From an uncultured Bacteroidota bacterium (lineage in GTDB: Bacteria; Bacteroidota; Bacteroidia; JABEUT01), in contig CAIPDV010000002.1 in the NCBI GenBank assembly GCA_903863935.1, positions 1 to 45,366 on the forward strand: 45,366 nucleotides of DNA, written 5' to 3'. Under the pieces are notes generated by a model. The model made no database searches and had not been told where the DNA came from. It was given only the letters and a program-made list of their open reading frames with translations. The position numbers were made by a program, and so were the translations under genes. The stretch's first letter is position 1; every line of letters starts with the position of its first letter. Of the stretch, positions 35,301 to 45,366 are shown in pieces.

Positions 35301-36428
35301 ATGACATTTCATGACTTGAACCTTATACCTCCTTTGCTCGAGGCAGTAAGTAAAGAAGGGTACACGCAACCAACTCCAATTCAGGAGAAAGCGATACCTT
35401 GTATTTTAGAGGGCAAAGACATTTTCGGCTGTGCACAAACTGGAACCGGCAAAACAGCAGCTTTTGCATTACCATTGCTTCAGCTTCTTCATCAGAATAA
35501 AGCAAATCAATTACCGGGCACAAAAGTACTTATACTTGCGCCAACCCGCGAGCTTGCATTGCAGATAAATGAAAGCTTTAAGGCATATGGCAGTAATCTT
35601 AGAATAAGCCATACCGTAATATTTGGTGGTGTATCTCAACACGCCCAAACAACTGCTTTGCGCAGAGGTGTGGATGTTATAGTTGCTACTCCGGGCAGAT
35701 TACTTGACCTGATGCAACAAGGCTATGTTAAACTCAACAACATTCAATATTTCGTTCTGGATGAAGCTGACCGTATGCTTGATATGGGCTTTATCAATGA
35801 CATTAAGAAGATCATAGCGCGTCTTCCGCAAAAAAGACAAACGGTATTCTTTTCGGCTACAGCACCCTTTGAAATTAAAAAGTTTGCAGATACCCTATTG
35901 AAGACCCCGGTGAATATAAATATTGCACCTGTTGCGTCTACTTCAGACCTTATCAGACAAGCAGTGTATTACGTAAGCCAGGAAAATAAAAGACCGCTAT
36001 TAAGACACGTTCTTAAAAGCGAATCAATTGAACATGCGCTGGTATTTACCCGTACCAAGCATGGTGCAGATAAGGTTGTAAAAGAACTCAATAAAAACGG
36101 AATTAAAGCTGAAGCTATTCATGGTAACAAATCGCAAAATGCACGCGAACGTGCATTGAAAGGATTTAAAGACAGAAGCATTAAGGTTCTTGTAGCAACT
36201 GATATTGCTTCCAGAGGTATTGATGTGGACAAATTAACGCATGTTATCAACTTTGAAATTCCTGAACAAGCTGAAACCTATGTTCACCGTATTGGTAGAA
36301 CAGGAAGGGCAGGGGAGTCCGGTGTTGCAATTTCATTCTGCACTACCGATGAAAGAGCTTATATGAGAAATATACACAAACTAATTAAGAAAAATATTGA
36401 TGTAGTTGCGACCCATCCTTTTTCATGA
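35301..36428 (+). CDS. RhlE-like DEAD-box RNA helicase
   Basis: 375 residues with every helicase motif: Q motif region 'GYTQPTPIQ', Walker A 'AQTGTGKT' (45-52), 'PTREL', 'TPGR', 'DEAD' (154-157), 'SAT' (185-187), 'ATDIASRGID' and 'HRIGRTGR'. It is the bare helicase core: the C-terminal Lys/Arg-rich tail usual in RhlE proteins is missing. It unwinds RNA, typically in ribosome assembly or mRNA decay, most needed in the cold. The cold-shock gene follows after 53 bp, and a desaturase gene is a little further on. Confidence 0.96.
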   Translation: MTFHDLNLIPPLLEAVSKEGYTQPTPIQEKAIPCILEGKDIFGCAQTGTGKTAAFALPLLQLLHQNKANQLPGTKVLILAPTRELALQINESFKAYGSNLRISHTVIFGGVSQHAQTTALRRGVDVIVATPGRLLDLMQQGYVKLNNIQYFVLDEADRMLDMGFINDIKKIIARLPQKRQTVFFSATAPFEIKKFADTLLKTPVNINIAPVASTSDLIRQAVYYVSQENKRPLLRHVLKSESIEHALVFTRTKHGADKVVKELNKNGIKAEAIHGNKSQNARERALKGFKDRSIKVLVATDIASRGIDVDKLTHVINFEIPEQAETYVHRIGRTGRAGESGVAISFCTTDERAYMRNIHKLIKKNIDVVATHPFS

Positions 36429-36481
36429 AAATGTAATTATTCGCATTCACTAAATTAAACGTATCACAAATAATCAACACA

Positions 36482-36673
36482 ATGAAAACAGGAACAGTAA
36501 AGTTTTTTAACGCAGAAAAGCACTACGGATTTATAACAATGGATGGAGCTTCCGATAGCGTGTTTGTTCACGAATCGAGCTTAAAGAGCCCAATACGCGA
36601 AAATGATAAAGTAACCTTCGACGTAGAAGAAACCGAAAAAGGCCTCCGTGCAATTAATGTATCAGTAGCATAA
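36482..36673 (+). CDS. Cold-shock domain protein (CspA family)
   Basis: 63 residues covering one cold-shock domain: 'TGTVKFFNAEKHYGFI' with RNP1-like 'YGFI', then RNP2-like 'VFVHESSL'. It binds single-stranded RNA/DNA as a chaperone. Position 53 bp after a DEAD-box helicase gene on the same strand, with no terminator between, suggests co-transcription in a cold-response unit. Confidence 0.94.
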   Translation: MKTGTVKFFNAEKHYGFITMDGASDSVFVHESSLKSPIRENDKVTFDVEETEKGLRAINVSVA

Positions 36674-36684
36674 AATAAAGTAAA

Positions 36685-36724
36685 CAGTTACCAGTCGTCA
36701 GTAGATACGGACAACTGATAACTG
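36685..36724. repeat. Short imperfect inverted repeat after the cold-shock gene
   Basis: CAGTTACCAGTCGTC (36685-36699) and GACAACTGATAACTG (36710-36724) pair over 15 bp with two C-A mismatches on the plus strand, which become G-U pairs in minus-strand RNA. It has no T-run, so it is more likely an intergenic repeat element or mRNA processing site than a terminator. Confidence 0.5.
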
Positions 36725-36735
36725 AACACTGAAAA

Positions 36736-37041
36736 ATGAATAAAGAAGAAGTAGCCACAATGATAAAGGACCGATATGCTGAAGGCAGCAATCTGTCTGT
36801 TATGCGCGTTATCTGCAAAGATGATGTGACCTATTATGGCTATTTTAATTCATTCAGCGATTTTTCTGAATTGATGGAGAAGAACCGTTACAGGTTCATT
36901 CCGAGGAATAATTCAAAAGCTTTCAGAGAAGAGCATAGTAAAAAAGGCGTATTCAATACTACCTTTAGTATCATTATAAACGGAGAGGATATTCTTGCAA
37001 TTGAGTTTGTAATGCCTTTACATAACCCGGAATTCAATTGA
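36736..37041 (+). CDS. Small cytosolic protein of unknown function
   Basis: 101 residues, no signal peptide or membrane segment. A mixed alpha/beta composition with 'VMRVICKDDVTYYGYFNSFSDFSELMEKNRYRFIPRNNSKAF' as its core. The 'YYGYF...F.dL...n.yRFIPrnN' pattern looks like a compact RNA- or protein-binding barrel, but I cannot name a family. It lies between the cold-shock gene and the desaturase gene on the same strand (45 bp before the latter), so it may share their regulation. Confidence 0.7.
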   Translation: MNKEEVATMIKDRYAEGSNLSVMRVICKDDVTYYGYFNSFSDFSELMEKNRYRFIPRNNSKAFREEHSKKGVFNTTFSIIINGEDILAIEFVMPLHNPEFN

Positions 37042-37086
37042 GGAAATTTTACCAGACCTTATTTGTTCAACTAAAAAGCTAAATAC

Positions 37087-37827
37087 ATGGTTATCCTCAT
37101 TTTTTTTGCAATTCATTGGTATGCCTCACTGTTTTTTCAGTCGGTATTCCATCACCGATACTCGGCGCACCGTGTATTCACCATGTCTAAAACCTGGGAA
37201 CGCTTATTTTATATAGGCTGCTTTATTACGCAAGGCTCTTCGTATATAAGCGCAACTACATATGGCATTATGCATCGTTTACATCACGCACACACGGATA
37301 CTCCGGAAGACCCGCACTCGCCATCCATCACTCCAAATCCTTTTGCCATGATGTGGATGACGAGGAACAGTTATTTCGATCTGTATAAAGGTGCTACTCC
37401 TGTTGAAGAGAAGTATAAAAAGGATCTGCCTGTTTGGGAAGCCTTCGACAAAATTGCTCACAACTGGATCACACGCATACTCTGGATTGCTGCATACGTA
37501 ACATTTTACTATTTCTTCGCAACTGCATGGTGGCAATGGCTATTCCTGCCGGCAACCATTATCATGGGCTCGTTGCAGGGTGTTGTCGTTAACTGGTGGG
37601 CGCATGTTTTCGGCTACCGTAATTATGAAGTAAACAACACATCCAGAAATATACTGCCGTTTGACCCTATATTTTGGGGCGAATCATTCCACAACAATCA
37701 TCATCAGCACCCGGGGAAACCCAATAATGCTGACCGTTGGTTTGAAGTGGATATGGGCTATCTTGCCATGAGAGGCATGCATGCAATGCGAATTATAAAA
37801 ATTAAAAACATAAGTAAACCAGTTTAA
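37087..37827 (+). CDS. Membrane fatty-acid (acyl-CoA/acyl-lipid) desaturase
   Basis: 246 residues with the three histidine boxes of the di-iron desaturase family: 'HHRYSAH' (22-28), 'HRLHHAH' (63-69) and 'HNNHHQH' (202-208), and several hydrophobic membrane segments. It introduces a double bond into membrane acyl chains, keeping membranes fluid at low temperature. It starts 45 bp after the small unknown gene and ends 8 bp before the sigma factor gene, so it belongs to that transcription unit. Shorter than eukaryotic desaturases but normal for Bacteroidota. Confidence 0.93.
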   Translation: MVILIFFAIHWYASLFFQSVFHHRYSAHRVFTMSKTWERLFYIGCFITQGSSYISATTYGIMHRLHHAHTDTPEDPHSPSITPNPFAMMWMTRNSYFDLYKGATPVEEKYKKDLPVWEAFDKIAHNWITRILWIAAYVTFYYFFATAWWQWLFLPATIIMGSLQGVVVNWWAHVFGYRNYEVNNTSRNILPFDPIFWGESFHNNHHQHPGKPNNADRWFEVDMGYLAMRGMHAMRIIKIKNISKPV

Positions 37828-37835
37828 TACCATCC

Positions 37836-38699
37836 ATGAGACAGCTAAAAATAACCAAATCGATCACGAATCGTGATAGTACCTCAATTGAAAAATACCT
37901 TGCGGACATAAGCAAACACGAATTGGTGTCAGCAGAAGAAGAAACCATTCTTGCCCAAAAAATAAGGGCAGGAGACCAGGCTGCATTGGACAGATTGGTT
38001 GTAGCAAACTTAAGGTTTGTTGTATCTGTTGCCAAACAATACCAGAATCAGGGATTAAGTCTTTCCGATTTAATTAATGAAGGGAATGTTGGTCTTGTTA
38101 AAGCAGCAAAACGTTTTGATGAAACACGGGGATTTAAATTCATCTCTTATGCGGTGTGGTGGATCCGCCAGTGTATAATTCAGGCGGTAGCTGTAAACTC
38201 AAGGGTTATAAGGCTTCCGTTAAATAAAGTAGGAGCTCTTAATCGTATTAAAAAAGCAGGTGGGTTGTTAGAACAAAAACTTGAACGTGAGGCAAGTCCT
38301 TCTGAGATTGCAGAAATATTGGAGATGTCTGAAAACGAAGTGAAGATAGCGATGGCATCTACCCACAGACATTTATCTACCGATTCTCCATTCTCAAATG
38401 CTGAAGATACTACGCTTATGGACGTTTTGCAGGATCACAACAGTCCTCAACCGGATAGTATGCTTATGGCTACTTCATTGAGTATAGAAATAAAGAGAGC
38501 CTTGTCAGGACTTTCTGAAAGGGAAAGTAACACCGTTATTTTGTTTTACGGTATTGGTTTGCAACATCCATTAACACTGGAAGAAATTGCAGAGCGTTAT
38601 GAAATTACCCGCGAACGTGTCCGCCAGATAAAAGATAAAGCCATTCGTAAGCTCAGGGTAAATTCCAGGAGTAAGATATTAAAGACCTATCTGGGGTAA
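37836..38699 (+). CDS. RpoD-type sigma-70 factor without region 1.1
   Basis: 287 residues, the usual length of Bacteroidota primary-type sigma factors. Regions 2 ('LANLRFVVSVAKQYQ'-type, 'ALDRLVVANLRFVVSVAKQYQNQGLSLSDLINEGNVGLVKAAKRFDETRGFKFISYAVWWIRQ'), 3 and 4.2 ('LEEIAERYEITRERVRQIKDKAIRKLR') are all present. It directs RNA polymerase to promoters such as the TAnnTTTG elements seen here. The segment 'QAVAVNSRVIRLP' departs from the 'EQSR' form I expect in the housekeeping RpoD, and the gene lies 8 bp after a desaturase gene; a second, condition-specific paralog is possible. Confidence 0.92.
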   Translation: MRQLKITKSITNRDSTSIEKYLADISKHELVSAEEETILAQKIRAGDQAALDRLVVANLRFVVSVAKQYQNQGLSLSDLINEGNVGLVKAAKRFDETRGFKFISYAVWWIRQCIIQAVAVNSRVIRLPLNKVGALNRIKKAGGLLEQKLEREASPSEIAEILEMSENEVKIAMASTHRHLSTDSPFSNAEDTTLMDVLQDHNSPQPDSMLMATSLSIEIKRALSGLSERESNTVILFYGIGLQHPLTLEEIAERYEITRERVRQIKDKAIRKLRVNSRSKILKTYLG

Positions 38700-38779
38700 A
38701 ACGAACGTGTTTTTTATATATTGTGTGCAACCATTTGCCGATATCCATCGTCTAAAGGTGTAAACGCATAATTTATTGT

Positions 38780-39238
38780 ATGGAAAAGAACCCAGAAAAA
38801 CAAACCGTAAAAAGCAATATTGACCGCAGGGATTTTTTACAGAAATCACTTTTATTGGCGGGTGGAACTGTTGGAGCGTCATGGCTCTTAAGTGCATGTG
38901 GAAAATCAAGCACATCGGCAGCAGCCAGCGGGCCAAGCGTTAATTTTACGATAGATCTGAGTTCTACTCAATACAAGTCACTCAAAACGAAAGGCAGCTA
39001 CGTATATGTAAATACTACTATAGTAGCCTGTGATGCAAGCGGCAATTATGTGGCACTGTATTCCGTATGTCCTCATGCAGGCTGCGACATAATTTTTGAT
39101 GGTTCATCTCAATTCCCATGTCCATGCCACGGTTCAATTTTTGATGAAAGCGGCAATGTTGTTCAAGGCCCGGCATCAAGCGGAGTAAGGAAGTATACCT
39201 GTACACTAAATGGAAATATATTAACCGTAGCAGGTTAA
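38780..39238 (+). CDS. Rieske [2Fe-2S] lipoprotein with twin-arginine signal
   Basis: 152 residues. The N-terminus has a twin-arginine motif (Arg16-Arg17 in 'RRDFLQK'), a hydrophobic stretch and a lipobox ending at Cys40 ('LLSAC'), so it is probably Tat-exported and lipid-anchored. The cluster ligands are Cys97 and His99 ('CPHAGC') with Cys114 and His117 ('CPCHGS'); Cys102 and Cys116 can form the Rieske disulfide. No cytochrome b or oxidase large subunit gene lies nearby, so its redox partner is unknown. Its stop overlaps that of the convergent DedA gene by 4 bp. Confidence 0.9.
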   Translation: MEKNPEKQTVKSNIDRRDFLQKSLLLAGGTVGASWLLSACGKSSTSAAASGPSVNFTIDLSSTQYKSLKTKGSYVYVNTTIVACDASGNYVALYSVCPHAGCDIIFDGSSQFPCPCHGSIFDESGNVVQGPASSGVRKYTCTLNGNILTVAG

Positions 39239-39867
39239 ACTCTTTTGCTTTCTCTCGCCAGTAATAGCTTGTTAGAAACGTGTTTTCCGACAAATAACAG
39301 GGTAATTACCAGGAGTATTATTATTCCAATGAATTGAAGTACTCCTGTTTGTTTTACGACTTCTTTCCAGTAAGGACCCAGTAATCTTCCAGTGAGTACT
39401 AGTCCTCCGCTCCATGTAATGGCTGATAAAAGCACGGTTGTTAAAAATATTTTCGGTTTTATTTGAATAGTGCCGGCAGCCACTGACATATATCCGCGTA
39501 AGAACGGAGTGATCCTGCCAATAAATATGGTCCAGCGGTTTCCATGTTCTATTTTCTGTTTGAGTTTCCCAAGCCTTGCAACAAATTTTTCGAGCCATAT
39601 TGGGGTGTTGTTGAAAAAGTAATGCTTGCTCAAACCATAAAAAATAAAATAGAGTATACTGGTTCCAATAAAATCAGCCGACACTGCAATTAGAATTACC
39701 TTCATAATACTGAGTGTTCCTGTATAAGTAAGGTATCCCGAGAAAATAAGGACGAGTTCATTTGTAATAGGATTTGGAATTCCAAGTTCTTGTAAAAATA
39801 CAAACAGGAATATTGCTACGTAGCCATATTGTAAAATGAAATTATTGAGGTCTTGTAATTTATCCAT
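39235..39867 (-). CDS. DedA-family membrane protein
   Basis: 210 residues, mostly membrane segments, with the DedA/SNARE-associated signature 'GRITPFLRGYMSVAAG' and the early 'FLQELGIPNPITNE' (equivalent of the E-x-x-x-P segment). DedA proteins are involved in recycling undecaprenyl phosphate or phospholipid flipping and in membrane homeostasis. The gene is 19 bp downstream of the truncated glycosyltransferase gene on the same strand, so both were probably in one operon. Confidence 0.9.
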   Translation of the reverse strand: MDKLQDLNNFILQYGYVAIFLFVFLQELGIPNPITNELVLIFSGYLTYTGTLSIMKVILIAVSADFIGTSILYFIFYGLSKHYFFNNTPIWLEKFVARLGKLKQKIEHGNRWTIFIGRITPFLRGYMSVAAGTIQIKPKIFLTTVLLSAITWSGGLVLTGRLLGPYWKEVVKQTGVLQFIGIIILLVITLLFVGKHVSNKLLLARESKRV

Positions 39868-39886
39868 TCGTTAAATTCTGGGAGGA

Positions 39887-40846
39887 TTATGAATTGTAAG
39901 CCACTTTTTTTGCAATCCGCGGGTATGGGGTCAACTGTCGTACATTATCATTTTCAAAAATAACTCCGTAAATATGTTTAAGTGTTAGTAAATGCGACTG
40001 GTTTGTCCATTCTTTAAATGCCATGTTATCTTTTCTTGTTGAAGACAGATAAGTCAGGAAGCGATCAATTTCAAAGGAGGTGTCATATATACCGGCACCT
40101 GCTCTGGCTGCGTCTCTTGAATTGCAGAATTGTTCATAATGTCCTTCAACGGGAACCATAAAAACTGGCTTGTCCAGATACATGGCTTCGCAAACTGATT
40201 CAAATCCGGACGTACTTACAAGACCTTTTGAATGTGCCATCATGCTCAGGAATTTTTTATCATTGATCTGATGAAAAGACAATGTGGAATCATATTCTAC
40301 CGAGTCGGTTATATCTTTTTTGTCAACAAAACAATGCAGTTTTGTTTCCGGATTTTTGTTGTGCCATTTTATAATATCTTCCATATATCCATCATTCAAA
40401 AGATAAACGAGCAGATAATCGCCATCGGTAGTTTGCTGGCCTTGCAATTCATCCCTTAACAGAGGTGGTACCACATAAATTGACTTTTCTTTGCAATCAT
40501 CAAAAGGATAAAACGACAGGGCCAACTTTTTCCGCGCTCCAATTGAGATCAGCCCTGTATATAGTTTAAGCCCAAGCCTGGAAATGAAATTGCCCTTAGG
40601 CATTATATAGTCGGGGTGGTTAAACATATAATGATGTCCAATACATATCATAGGGATTTTAGGACGAAAAAGCAAATAATATAAACCCGCCAGTGGTTCG
40701 TAGAAATTAATAATTACGTCGGGTTTGTGTTCTTTAATTTTTTTGTGAATGAGTGATAAACTGTAAATAAACTTTGGTAACCTGGAAATAACTCCAAGAA
40801 AAGATGACAGTGACCGGATGGCTTTTTTATTCTTACCATATGACAT
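39887..40846 (-). CDS. Glycosyltransferase (MurG-like superfamily), 5'-truncated
   Basis: 319 residues from the first ATG. The C-terminal half carries the donor-binding segment 'STSGFESVCEAMYLDKPVFMVPVEGHYEQFCN' of Glyco_trans_1_3/TIGR00661-like transferases; the N-terminal half starts in the middle of the first Rossmann domain. The frame is open for 11 further codons (to 40879, reading GAPVTLIESPN) before a stop, and these residues still fit the family, but the first roughly 60 residues with the 'G-x-G-H' start of the fold are missing. The break coincides with the broken 3' end of the Argonaute gene. It is probably inactive. Confidence 0.8.
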   Translation of the reverse strand: MSYGKNKKAIRSLSSFLGVISRLPKFIYSLSLIHKKIKEHKPDVIINFYEPLAGLYYLLFRPKIPMICIGHHYMFNHPDYIMPKGNFISRLGLKLYTGLISIGARKKLALSFYPFDDCKEKSIYVVPPLLRDELQGQQTTDGDYLLVYLLNDGYMEDIIKWHNKNPETKLHCFVDKKDITDSVEYDSTLSFHQINDKKFLSMMAHSKGLVSTSGFESVCEAMYLDKPVFMVPVEGHYEQFCNSRDAARAGAGIYDTSFEIDRFLTYLSSTRKDNMAFKEWTNQSHLLTLKHIYGVIFENDNVRQLTPYPRIAKKVAYNS

Positions 40847-40866
40847 ATTAGGGCTTTCAATAAGGG

Positions 40867-41820
40867 TTACAGGCGCACCTTAAGCAAGTTAAAGGCTTGC
40901 TCCTCGCTTAAATGTGGTGTTCTATCATATTTTTTCAATATGATTTCTTCCCCTCTAAGTATTACTCCTTTACCGAGTTCGTTGAAAATTTGGGCAATGC
41001 TTGTTTGTGTAGTGCTTTTATCCCTGCTTTTGAAAAAACTGATACCCGCATAACACGTTGTTTCTGCGGAATCCTTTCGGATTAAAGCCCAGGGTGTCCC
41101 GGATGCCTTATAATATAATGCTGTAAAAAAATTCCATGCTATTGTAGCTTCGTCTTGCATGTCGGACGTAGGTTTCGCAATTCTATCCCGTACAATTTGG
41201 ATAGGTACATTATGCTGCATTGCCTTAGCCTTTAAATATCTTCTGAAATTTTGTTCTTTCTCGGAGGTATCATCATCTTTGGCATCAGCCTGTGTTGTAT
41301 CCGTATCCTCGTCTTCCTCCTCTTCTTCTGAATCCGTTTCTTTAATATAGGTCATGAAGTTTTCGCTAAGCGCACAAAGAATAACATCCGGATTCTTATT
41401 TTTGGACAGGAACTTTATTTCATTCAAATAGAGATTTGCTATATCTATAATCCTATCCTCAAGGTCAGTACTTTTCTTAATAATTTCATCAAAATCGGAA
41501 TTGTTCAGTTTCCTTAGATATGTATCGTCATAGGCAATCTCACACTTAAAGCCTATATCTTTATTAAAGCCGCAAAAATTCATAAATAAATTCGGGTGAG
41601 GTGTTTTACTTAGCTTGCCGTCAATATGGCTCTTACAAGAATCAATCCAAGTAATAATTTTTTCTATGCTTTCGCTTTTACCTATAATTCCAATAGTGAT
41701 TTTTTCCGGTCTAACTTGTCCAATATCGAATGGGCTGTAAGAATATATGCCGCTTTTAGGGCATATATGTTGGTTTTCGCCAAACTGTAATGAGGGTTCT
41801 TCAATATATCTAAGTTTCAT
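40867..41820 (-). CDS. Short prokaryotic Argonaute (MID-PIWI), 3'-truncated
   Basis: 317 residues; short Argonautes are usually about 450-510. N-terminal 'EPSLQFGENQHICPKSGIYSYSPFD' and the MID region with 'RRYLKAKAMQHNVPIQIVRD' (193-212), the K..K..Q-type pocket for a guide 5' end, are typical. The PIWI domain begins ('ATIAWNFFTALYYKASGTPWAL', 'CYAGISFF') and stops at 'HLSEEQAFNLLKVRL', where relatives continue for some 150-180 residues. 'AGISFF' lacks the first catalytic Asp, as in other inactive short Argonautes. An acidic insert (164-189) interrupts MID. The ATG overlaps the TAA of the SMEK-APAZ gene by one base. It would pair with that protein for guide-directed sensing of invaders, but this copy is probably broken. 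Confidence 0.82.
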   Translation of the reverse strand: MKLRYIEEPSLQFGENQHICPKSGIYSYSPFDIGQVRPEKITIGIIGKSESIEKIITWIDSCKSHIDGKLSKTPHPNLFMNFCGFNKDIGFKCEIAYDDTYLRKLNNSDFDEIIKKSTDLEDRIIDIANLYLNEIKFLSKNKNPDVILCALSENFMTYIKETDSEEEEEDEDTDTTQADAKDDDTSEKEQNFRRYLKAKAMQHNVPIQIVRDRIAKPTSDMQDEATIAWNFFTALYYKASGTPWALIRKDSAETTCYAGISFFKSRDKSTTQTSIAQIFNELGKGVILRGEEIILKKYDRTPHLSEEQAFNLLKVRL

Positions 41821-43322
41821 TATTCAAAAAGTGTTGGGTCAGTCAATTCATTATCGAGTTCAATATCTGTTGGGGGAGCATCAATACTTTTTTCAACAAC
41901 TTTAACAGGTCGCCATTTCTTTTCATCTAAACTTGGCGATAGTTCCAATACTGAGGCAGGTTCAATTTTCAGATAGGGAAAATTTGTAGTAAATAAGTCA
42001 GAATAGGAAAGGTAATATCCAAAAAACCGGAAATAATTGTAAACCGCACTATTATTCTCAAGCCGCTTTATCCCTGCCATATAAGCCGATTCAAAACGGC
42101 TTTGCCTATAACCACCGGGGTTTGTAAAACTCCATGTGGGATTAACTACCAAATACCAATCATCTGAAAGATTAATAAAAGAACACCGGAAAGCGAGATT
42201 CCTAAAGCAGATTATATGACCTTCTTTCTTGTTTATCATTTTGAAGATAACTGTTTTGGTAGATTCCTTTTTTCCTTTCCATCTAACCTGCTTATGGGTT
42301 GGGTTCTGCTGATTGTTTGCAAATCTGAATAATTCTCTTTTATGAAACCATTCAATACCACGAGTATCACATAACTCCATTAAAGTATTTTTTAGAAGGT
42401 TCTTGAATACCTTTTGGTAGTCCTCATTCACCTCATAAAATTCTTTGCATTCAATCGGGGTAATTGTACCAACATCAATAATTTGTCTGAAAGGTTCTGA
42501 ACTATTGTGTAAATCTCTGAAAGTATAGATACACTTCTCGTGTAGCAGCCAATCGAAAGCTTTGGCATCCATTTCTTTTAATGCCCTTTTTACAAGTTTC
42601 CCGGTACGAATTTTTTTAAACGGTTTTTTACCATACTTTACCAGACTTTCATTTATTCTCGCAGTAATTCCAGCTTCGTCTATGTTTAATTCCGCTTTAT
42701 AAAGTGTATCAGGGAATGAGACCTTTAATAAGTTTGGGGTAATATTCTCCGGCTCGCTTTTTAAAAATCCACTCTCAAACTTATGTTTCCGCATCTCTAA
42801 TTGAACTTCGGAAAACTCGTGTTGAAAGAGTTTCGCTAAATTTTCGAGTTTAGGAGTGGAGCTGATTCCGCTTATTTTTTGAACTAAATCATCCTTATCA
42901 ATAACATGGTCTATGGAAGTGAATTGGAAACTGTTTTTTAATAAAGCCCTTATTTTATCCTCATTATAACTCTCCTTTTTTTGGGTAATAATGTAAATAT
43001 AGAGAACGTCAAAATGCTTATCTAAGTTATATCGGAAGAAGGTTTCAATGGTATCTTTTATTTTAGCCAAGCTGCTTGTTGCTGTAATTTGAAAGGCTAC
43101 CCGGTTATTAAAGTCCGCCAAATCAATTGCAGGGAAGTTTCTCTTTTGAACAGAGTTTAGATTTTCCAGTCTTAATCCGAATACCTCATTAAGCACTGGA
43201 ATCAGGAAGCTTTCGGCATGTATATTTACATCGAACAATCCGGCGGCATTGAATGCCTCAACTTCCAGTACAAATCGTGCAGAATACGTTGCAATTTTAT
43301 TTATATGTTCTATTCTATTCAT
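41820..43322 (-). CDS. SMEK-like nuclease domain fused to APAZ, short Argonaute partner
   Basis: 500 residues, no signal or membrane segment. Residues about 1-150 resemble the SMEK domain, a restriction-endonuclease-like fold: 'VNIHAESFLIPVLNEVFG', then 'AIDLAD' (Asp67) and 'VAFQITAT' (Gln78) where a PD-(D/E)xK-type core is expected. Residues about 200-475 are an APAZ domain, with 'KRELFRFANN', 'DDWYLVVNPTWSFT' (388-400) and 'GIKRLENNSAVYNY' (417-430). APAZ proteins form heterodimers with short Argonautes encoded next door and bring the effector (Sir2, TIR or nuclease). This gene is intact and coupled to the MID-PIWI gene, so the pair is a nuclease-type short Argonaute defence system. The effector assignment is by pattern only. 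Confidence 0.8.
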   Translation of the reverse strand: MNRIEHINKIATYSARFVLEVEAFNAAGLFDVNIHAESFLIPVLNEVFGLRLENLNSVQKRNFPAIDLADFNNRVAFQITATSSLAKIKDTIETFFRYNLDKHFDVLYIYIITQKKESYNEDKIRALLKNSFQFTSIDHVIDKDDLVQKISGISSTPKLENLAKLFQHEFSEVQLEMRKHKFESGFLKSEPENITPNLLKVSFPDTLYKAELNIDEAGITARINESLVKYGKKPFKKIRTGKLVKRALKEMDAKAFDWLLHEKCIYTFRDLHNSSEPFRQIIDVGTITPIECKEFYEVNEDYQKVFKNLLKNTLMELCDTRGIEWFHKRELFRFANNQQNPTHKQVRWKGKKESTKTVIFKMINKKEGHIICFRNLAFRCSFINLSDDWYLVVNPTWSFTNPGGYRQSRFESAYMAGIKRLENNSAVYNYFRFFGYYLSYSDLFTTNFPYLKIEPASVLELSPSLDEKKWRPVKVVEKSIDAPPTDIELDNELTDPTLFE

Positions 43323-43344
43323 TTATAGGCTAAGGGGTTGCCAT

Positions 43345-43815
43345 TTAAGTCAAACTGTTTCCTGTAAGTTTCAGGTAAAACCTTTTGAATGTTGCGCTCT
43401 GCTTGAGGTCTCGTGGTCGTTCCACTTGTTTTATGATTCGTATGGCTGAATCCAAATCATTGTAATCTATGCCTCGATGCTGTTTAAATAACCTTCTTAG
43501 TTTCTTTTTGGGATTTACATCTCTGTCCGGATGCCTGATGTTGGCAATGGAAACCGGGTGAGCAGGAGTTGATAATACTCTTTCAATGGCTGAAACATCT
43601 GCAATCAGCCAACTTTCCAATTCATGTACAATACCAATAAATTCTACGTTATCAAGAGGTATGTTCTTTTCAGCTAACTGATTCCTGATGAGATTTCTTT
43701 CTTCCACTATGCAATCGCAGTTTGCATATTTTGGCATTAAATCCCAAACAATAAAGACTTTATTGCAACCTGTTTTCAGAAGAATTAAAGAAATTAGGGG
43801 AATAATTTTTTTGAC
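43345..43815 (-). pseudogene. DUF4276 (Toprim-like) gene, 5'-truncated
   Basis: The first ATG (43737) gives 130 residues; the frame is open for 26 more codons to 43815, reading into 'KKIIPLISLILLKTGCNKVFIVWD', then a TAG. Residues 'VHELESWLIADVSAIERVL', 'NPKKKLRRLF' and the Arg-rich end ('SATFKRFYLKL') match DUF4276, whose members are often paired with AAA ATPases in defence modules. The acidic N-terminal Toprim motif (E-G) and about 60 residues are missing, and no ATG or coding signal is seen further upstream. It lies 22 bp before the SMEK-APAZ gene, same strand. Either a broken gene or, less likely, a short form starting at 43737. Confidence 0.65.
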
Positions 43816-44063
43816 CTATATGTTCTTATGAATAAAAAACTAAAATAACAAAACTATTTCAATTAAATTACCTCTGACAGTAATTTGAATCCAATTAAAA
43901 TGAACAAAGCAAAATCGAATACCATCCGACAAAAACCACCATAACATTCACCGCATATTGAATATGCCAAAAAATGCGTACTATTGCATTGATTTTCAAT
44001 GTGTATTGTACGAATTCAAAGAGGTACATAAAGTGATAGAGATGAAACATTTAAAAATACTGC
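43816..44063. other. Non-coding, dyad-rich left end of a recombinase element
   Basis: No coding frame. It holds three inverted repeats: AAATTAC/GTAATTT (43865-43886), the 15-bp GCATATTGAATATGC (43953-43967) and a larger imperfect dyad CGTAC...CATTGA-TTT-TCAATG...GTACG (43977-44012). The DUF4276 frame stops at its left edge and the recombinase genes begin at its right, so it may contain the attachment site and recombinase or regulator binding sites. The exact boundary is not visible. Confidence 0.4.
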
Positions 44064-44264
44064 ATGAAAATAACCTACAGCAAAGGCGAGGAAGAAGATT
44101 TAACAATAGAGGATGCCAAAGAATTTGAGTGTTGCAAAGATTTGACTGATGAAGAAATTAAAGAGTTGCTTGAGACCATCCGGATTTTTACAGAAATTGC
44201 CTACTGTGCTTTTGCTAATTATAAAGAGAATGACCAAGACATTTTATATAATAACGCAGCTTGA
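44064..44264 (+). CDS. Small acidic protein upstream of the recombinase
   Basis: 66 residues, acidic, helical, no signal peptide ('IEDAKEFECCKDLTDEEIKELLETIRIFTEIAYCAF'). It ends 15 bp before the recombinase start, same strand. Small proteins with a similar 'DLTDEEI.ELL' core occur next to site-specific recombinases in Bacteroidota mobile elements, which I recall but cannot verify here. A role as excision or regulatory factor is speculative. Confidence 0.6.
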   Translation: MKITYSKGEEEDLTIEDAKEFECCKDLTDEEIKELLETIRIFTEIAYCAFANYKENDQDILYNNAA

Positions 44265-44279
44265 TAAAACCAATTTACT

Positions 44280-45366
44280 ATGAATGATACCGAATTATTT
44301 GAATCGTTTGCCAAAGGCAAGAAGCATTTACTTGTAAGCACGAGCAATTGTGTAATCTATACAAGGGTATCTACGAAGGAACAAGCCGACAATAATATGA
44401 GCTTGGACACCCAACGGAAATCCTGTGAGCAGTTTGCTTTAAAGAATGCCTATACAATTCTCGGTTGTTTTGGCGGCACGTATGAAAGCGCAAAAACAGA
44501 TGAGCGTAAAGAGTTCAGCCGGATGCTATCCTTTGTAAAAAAGAGCAGGGAGAAAATCACCCATATAATTGTTTATAGCGTTGACCGTTTCTCCCGTTCA
44601 GGTGGGAATGCCATTTACCTGACGGAGCAGTTAAAGAAACAGGGTGTAATGGTTCATTCGGTAACACAACCTACCGATTCCACTACTTCAAGCGGAAGCC
44701 TCCAACAGAACATTCAGTTCATTTTTTCGGAATATGACAACCAACTCCGCAGGGAGAAATGCATGGCAGGTATCAAAGAAGCCCTGCTGAGAGGGGAGTG
44801 GTGTCATACTGCCCCTGTTGGATATGACAGTATAATAATTAATGGTAAAAGGCAATTGGTCGTTAATGAAAAAGGGAAGCTTCTCAGGAAGGCGTTTTTA
44901 TGGAAAGCCAATGAGGGATTATCTACCGAAGCAATAAAGGATAAATTGGCAGCTATGGGGTATAAAATCTATCATCAGAAATTGGCGTATATCTTTCGTA
45001 ATCCTTTCTATTGTGGTTATTTAGTTCACAATTCTTTGGAAGGAAAAGTAGTTGTGGGCAACCATGAGAAAGTAACTACCAAGGAAATATTTTTGAAGGT
45101 GAACGATTTACTCAAAGAAAATGCCCAAGGCTATATGGTTAAACATGAAAACGATGAGATACCTTTAAAGAGCTTTCTGATATGCGACCATTGCGGTGCA
45201 AATATGCCGGGATATATTGTCAAGAAGAAAAACCTATGGTATTACAAATGCAGGACACAGGGATGCTGCAATAATAAAAGTGCAAAAGAAATACATGGGA
45301 CTTTCTATACCATCTTAGCAAGGTTTAAAGCGGTTGATAAGTACAAGGATTTGATGAATGCCCATA
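44280..45366 (+). CDS. Large serine recombinase (resolvase/integrase family), partial
   Basis: The ATG at 44280 opens a frame that runs off the right edge after 362 codons. The N-terminal resolvase domain has catalytic Ser31 in 'IYTRVSTKEQ', and 'YSVDRFSRSGG' (99-109). A recombinase DNA-binding domain follows ('APVGYDSI', 'IFRNPFYCGYLVH' at 238-250), then a zinc ribbon starting 'LICDHCGANMPGY' (Cys302, Cys305) with Cys324 and Cys329/330. These enzymes integrate and excise mobile elements, with the attachment site usually beside the gene. The element extends beyond the window. Confidence 0.93.
   Translation, partial: MNDTELFESFAKGKKHLLVSTSNCVIYTRVSTKEQADNNMSLDTQRKSCEQFALKNAYTILGCFGGTYESAKTDERKEFSRMLSFVKKSREKITHIIVYSVDRFSRSGGNAIYLTEQLKKQGVMVHSVTQPTDSTTSSGSLQQNIQFIFSEYDNQLRREKCMAGIKEALLRGEWCHTAPVGYDSIIINGKRQLVVNEKGKLLRKAFLWKANEGLSTEAIKDKLAAMGYKIYHQKLAYIFRNPFYCGYLVHNSLEGKVVVGNHEKVTTKEIFLKVNDLLKENAQGYMVKHENDEIPLKSFLICDHCGANMPGYIVKKKNLWYYKCRTQGCCNNKSAKEIHGTFYTILARFKAVDKYKDLMNAH

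Follow-up and report, generated by a model that had tools for sequence, protein, structure and literature searches.

The window analysed here, 45,366 nucleotides of an uncultured Bacteroidota bacterium, is the entire contig C2 of a 126-contig genome, a fragmented assembly that is probably a MAG. Rightward from 36 kb it carries host genes for a DEAD-box helicase, a cold-shock-type protein, a sigma factor and a DedA-type protein, which are followed on the minus strand by a glycosyltransferase ORF (39887-40846), a 317-aa ORF, a 500-aa ORF and a 130-aa ORF of the DUF4276 family. To the right of the latter, on the plus strand, a 66-aa ORF precedes a recombinase gene, inside which the contig ends at position 45366.

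The DUF4276 ORF (43345-43737, minus strand) encodes 130 aa from its first ATG, and its frame stays open for 156 codons, up to a stop just above 43815. The Pfam score is above the cut-off, with only profile positions 99-191 of 192 being matched. Full-length relatives of 198 and 202 residues are encoded on plasmids of the cyanobacteria Anabaena and Calothrix, and the window protein aligns with residues 54-197 of the Anabaena relative, about 53 residues being missing. It is a fragment of a family member and not a full-length domain, and by the Pfam match and these alignments the gene fragment extends over 43345..43782 (residues 54 to the end). An earlier note on this DNA had claimed a lost N-terminus, and indeed residues 1-53 of the 198-residue relative have no counterpart here. 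The same note had put the cut at 43815, which is merely the next upstream stop codon, whereas homology ends at ~43782 and the true breakpoint lies at ~43779-43784, the first base common to this recombinase copy and a second one on contig C36. We also considered a native short protein of 130-156 aa with the same start, and rejected it: none of that length occurs in the sampled Bacteroidota, the relatives being 198 and 202 residues long. Searched with the DUF4276 profile, the whole genome yielded the window fragment and one intact gene (C14) but no orphan N-terminal part, and viral contigs contained no close relatives of either DUF4276 or the recombinase. The family is that of the DUF4276 and ATP-binding partner systems (PADLOC HEC-01 type), and on the Anabaena plasmid genes for a DNA methyltransferase and an ATP-binding protein precede the homologue; by contrast, the window DUF4276 has neither its N-terminal part nor a partner gene.

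The earlier note had also suspected two stacked defence systems, and this is supported by a short-Argonaute pair that adjoins DUF4276. The 500-aa ORF (41820..43322, minus strand) encodes a full-length SMEK-APAZ effector of a SPARDA-type system, matching SMEK_N (E 1.5e-43) and PADLOC Aga_REase-PNTD1-PNTD2 (E 1.4e-165); its closest structure is the Mrr-APAZ domain of Kordia jejudonensis (E 4e-54), and its homologue in genome G386 is full length. The fusion of a SMEK nuclease domain to APAZ assigns the protein to SPARDA, with which SMEK-APAZ short-Argonaute pairs have been grouped (PMC12205087). The 317-aa ORF (40867..41820, minus strand) matches PADLOC pAgo_I (E 4.8e-104, covering positions 1-291 of 455) and short Argonautes in the PDB. 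By eye it shares ~80% identity with its 481-aa homologue in G386, the alignment ending at residue 313, at ~40882, so that MID-PIWI is incomplete in the window (313 of 481 residues, with the rest of PIWI missing). As in SPARDA systems, the SMEK and APAZ domains and the short pAgo lie in a single operon (PMC12205087); unlike in those systems, the Argonaute is without its last third, and this copy is therefore presumably dead.

Contig C149 of the congener G005 is collinear with the window from 36000 to 40876. Past the equivalent of 40876 there follow a glycosyltransferase gene that is intact (388 aa), genes for an outer-membrane-type protein and a sigma factor, and a pair of tRNA-Arg(CCG) genes, giving the order DedA - glycosyltransferase - outer-membrane protein - sigma factor - tRNA-Arg. 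The window copy of the glycosyltransferase gene (39887..40876, minus strand) has lost its N-terminus, homology to the intact gene persisting until ~40876, and a sharp fusion at 40867-40882 joins it to the Argonaute gene, which has lost its C-terminus. A DNA-level search did not find the displaced host genes elsewhere in the genome. Foreign DNA thus begins at 40877, 2.9 kb left of DUF4276, where the host gene is broken, and 40877-43782 is the remnant of two stacked defence systems without their outer edges: DUF4276, which is the upstream gene, SMEK-APAZ and the short Argonaute. A deletion with one end in the glycosyltransferase gene and the other in the Argonaute gene would fit the left junction. 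Since the foreign remnant includes DUF4276, this gene is probably cut cargo, and not the insertion site of the element.

The recombinase unit begins at the other side of the breakpoint. The C36 copy is 93% identical to the window from 43779 to the contig end and diverges left of 43779, where its flank is an SprB-repeat (SprB-type) adhesin ORF that likewise looks cut. Because this ORF also reaches the border, the border of the unit and the DUF4276 breakpoint coincide within a few bases, as the claim that DUF4276 is cut at the left border of a recombinase element implied. From this shared start the left border (43779..44063, plus strand) is non-coding up to 44064, in line with the earlier note; its description as dyad-rich was an overstatement, as there is one imperfect hairpin (~43973-44016; DNA fold z = -2.2, with 6 of 200 shuffles as good). 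The 66-aa ORF (44064..44264, plus strand) and the recombinase gene (44280..45366, plus strand) point away from DUF4276, as had been described. The former is kept in the copies on C36 and C62 and in 28 of 74 relatives, and might possibly encode an accessory or directionality factor. The latter provides the first 362 residues of a large serine recombinase, identified as such by its Resolvase (3.9e-28) and Recombinase (2e-11) domains; these are followed by a zinc ribbon which, in the partial protein, scores 19.9 bits, under the cut-off of 25.3. Full-length copies have 554 aa (C36) and 537 aa (C62).

The C36 recombinase gene abuts a tRNA-Arg(CCG) gene, confirmed by Rfam, and the C62 copy, 71% identical, ends at a tRNA-Pro remnant. 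A further recombinase end, on C13, consists of the tRNA-3'-like sequence TGGAACCAATTGGAGTTGAACC; a search for its source tRNA gave no other match to the 22-mer in this genome, even at up to 3 mismatches. Contigs C2, C13 and C36 have one identical ~50-bp stretch in common, at which the assembly graph must have tangled. We rejected C13 as the certain continuation of the window, given one mismatch in its overlap with the last 52 bases of C2, differing final bases and another location in congeners. The right-hand part of C36 is the continuation that we tentatively favour, on the strength of synteny with G005 around tRNA-Arg.

A scan of genome contigs yielded 80 relatives of the recombinase, with the 3' end covered in 74. 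In 51 of these 74 the 3' end of the recombinase gene abuts an intact tRNA gene, in antisense orientation and with 13 anticodons represented; in 2 more it abuts a tmRNA, and a tRNA-3'-like remnant is present at many of the others. Most of the relatives, like tRNA islands, therefore have one end at the 3' end of a tRNA gene that stays intact; the right end of the window copy lies outside the window. Three pairs of empty and occupied sites were found. At tRNA-Phe, the empty site (G010) reads CTTCATCG GTGGTGCTG and the occupied site (G006) TCCAACTTA GTGGTGCTG; at tRNA-Arg, the empty site (G005) reads CATT GTGGCCCC and the occupied one (C36) AATTTG GTGGCCCC; the third pair is at tRNA-Pro (G005 versus C62). 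These pairs place the crossover at the tRNA 3' terminus, where the discriminator base meets the CCA end, so that the body of the tRNA is kept. Common to the empty and occupied sites is GT, the complement of C74-A73, and the dinucleotide is GC at tRNA-Ser and tRNA-Asp sites, where base 73 is G. The crossover dinucleotide would thus be G plus the complement of discriminator base 73. Recombinases at Ser and Asp sites form a single clade (support 100/100), one member of which is without an intact tRNA. Outside this clade isotype changes freely among close relatives: L020, at tRNA-Arg(CCT), and L032, at tRNA-Met, are 97% identical over 2.8 kb. The T-arm is probably the recognised half-site, since it is conserved and since insertion also occurs at remnants that keep little beyond the T-loop and acceptor. 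Upon insertion the recombinase reading frame continues into the antisense strand of the tRNA gene, and the last residues consequently vary by target.

Tandem partial copies of tRNA-Arg and tRNA-Pro 3' ends were seen in G005, at L129:1-600 (C149) and L180 (C42), some of them with a hairpin replacing the anticodon arm; they are probably scars of earlier integrations. At one locus (L052) the right end is not a tRNA sequence: it reads GGTCATGGTGAGCCCCGCCGAACCA and recurs twice downstream (23 of 25 matches), resembling an attachment-site array.

Cargo was assessed by taking the longest ORF within 4 kb on each side of the first 20 eligible loci and searching it against PADLOC at 1e-10. Matches were obtained for 10 of the 20 left ORFs versus 3 of the 20 right ORFs, and all three of the latter are RecQ-like helicases matching DpdF, which are probably housekeeping. 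Defence genes on the left side include type I restriction, AbiE, DrmB, Rmr and HipA-like genes (HipA by eye only); for a few of the left-side matches (Fic, PDC-S02) the case for a defence role is weak. Left of the G006 recombinase copy lies a type I restriction locus (by eye); besides the serine recombinase at tRNA-Phe, the island there (contig C149, L183) contains type I restriction genes, a pair resembling IS21 and a tyrosine-recombinase-like ORF. The C62 and G006 copies have further upstream ORFs in common. On the basis of these shared ORFs and the left-side cargo pattern, we favour a mobile unit made up of recombinase and cargo over one made up of the recombinase alone. The left border is sharp between near copies (80-97% identical) with unrelated flanks, and no consistent repeated core was found at the left borders of the relatives. 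Nor did a search for a displaced tRNA 3' repeat at the far end give any match over background within 10 kb upstream in relatives, a distance beyond which longer islands could hide one. In most relatives inspected the adjacent cargo gene shows no obvious cut, stopping 17-156 bp short of the border, which makes the truncation in this genome unusual. In two loci (L028 and L030) a 213-bp left-border segment is shifted by ~215 bp relative to L023, L024, L029, L031, L036 and L038; the region concerned lies 200-650 bp upstream of the recombinase, and the shift looks like the result of a small insertion separating the segment from the recombinase.

The right end of the window is best read as a decayed mobile island with broken defence cargo beside a tRNA-seeking serine recombinase. 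We consider it fairly likely that this is a serine-recombinase island of the type found at tRNA 3' ends, with defence genes as cargo that has eroded at both edges, and that DUF4276 was cut as part of that cargo. The integrase of such an island would be the large serine recombinase, inserting beside tRNA genes; its attB half-site would be formed by the conserved T-arm and acceptor, exchange would take place at the base-73-dependent dinucleotide, and defence genes would travel as cargo on its left side, here DUF4276 and then the SMEK-APAZ/short-Argonaute pair. The deletion that fused the Argonaute gene to the host glycosyltransferase gene would have removed the far cargo edge; the near edge, and with it the 5' end of DUF4276 and any partner gene upstream of it, would have been lost at the left border of the recombinase unit, so that DUF4276 would have been cut by deletion or module exchange and not as an insertion target.

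The earlier note had instead proposed integration of the element into a DUF4276 gene until then intact, the 5' part of which should now lie at the far end. The gene is indeed cut exactly at the border of the unit, yet the profile search found no 5' fragment in the assembly, the ORFs of C13 and C36 hold no DUF4276 sequence, both of these possible right-hand continuations end in tRNA-3'-like sequence instead, and the target of the recombinase family is tRNA; we regard this reading as very improbable. The core repeat matching 43795-43870 that it anticipated was not found, and the only repeat deduced is the dinucleotide at the tRNA end. A less remote, if still unlikely, alternative is that the recombinase unit is an IS-like element of ~2 kb, ending at 43779 and at the tRNA, whose arrival or an adjacent deletion cut DUF4276. 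Sharp left borders with unrelated flanks in sets of near copies would suit such an element, as would the presence of a cut gene at the border in both C2 and C36. However, the DUF4276 5' part is absent from the genome, the left borders are without a repeated core, neighbouring genes in relatives are mostly uncut, and the upstream ORFs shared by the C62 and G006 copies mean that the unit is not always 2 kb. That one or both junctions (40877 and 43780) result from an assembly chimera might be suspected from the fragmentation of the assembly and from the contigs broken by the ~50-bp identical stretch within the recombinase. Yet both junctions sit in unique sequence, and at each of them the homology of both partners stops within a few bases with no shared repeat, which leaves a chimera quite unlikely.

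The proposed island, eroded at both edges, has features in common with several known systems. Like Islander/TIGER-type tRNA islands, which mostly use tyrosine integrases, it integrates at the 3' end of a tRNA or tmRNA gene with the tRNA preserved, and has its integrase gene at the tRNA-proximal edge next to variable cargo; it differs in that the enzyme is a large serine recombinase, that exchange maps to the discriminator/CCA position and that no relative showed a displaced 3' tRNA repeat in the 10 kb searched towards the other end. SCC elements (CcrA/B/C) similarly combine a large serine recombinase with a cassette of restriction and other defence genes, but the target here is tRNA 3' ends and not rlmH, the hosts are Bacteroidota, and the recombinase scores 77 and 43 against the NCBIfam CcrB and CcrC models, far below the cut-off of 900. 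It resembles Tn4451/TndX-type mobilizable elements (PMC5704250) in having one large serine recombinase and, to judge from the right ends of the copies compared, a 2-bp core, whereas its target class is tRNA 3' ends. In the openly accessible literature tRNA targeting is described mainly for tyrosine integrases, while serine-recombinase mobilizable elements show low specificity or disrupt dispensable genes (PMC5704250), and the accessible part of a resource of serine integrases with mapped sites does not describe the recombinase family of the window (PMC12884075). Judged provisionally on that openly accessible literature, the tRNA-3'-end target of this family appears to be unusual.

In summary, we lean, if by a small measure, towards a family of large serine recombinases in Bacteroidota that use the universal T-arm and acceptor of tRNA and tmRNA genes as attB and shuttle anti-phage defence cassettes, with a crossover dinucleotide that takes in the discriminator position, so that each lineage can hop between isotypes with the same base 73 (A73 versus G73). 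For the window itself, this would make the truncation of DUF4276 a case of island decay and would add a broken SMEK-type Argonaute system. If true, it would also provide serine integrases with an attB in every genome, with the discriminator base as a testable rule for which tRNAs are usable, and it would explain how defence cassettes can settle harmlessly in many tRNA genes across the Bacteroidota.
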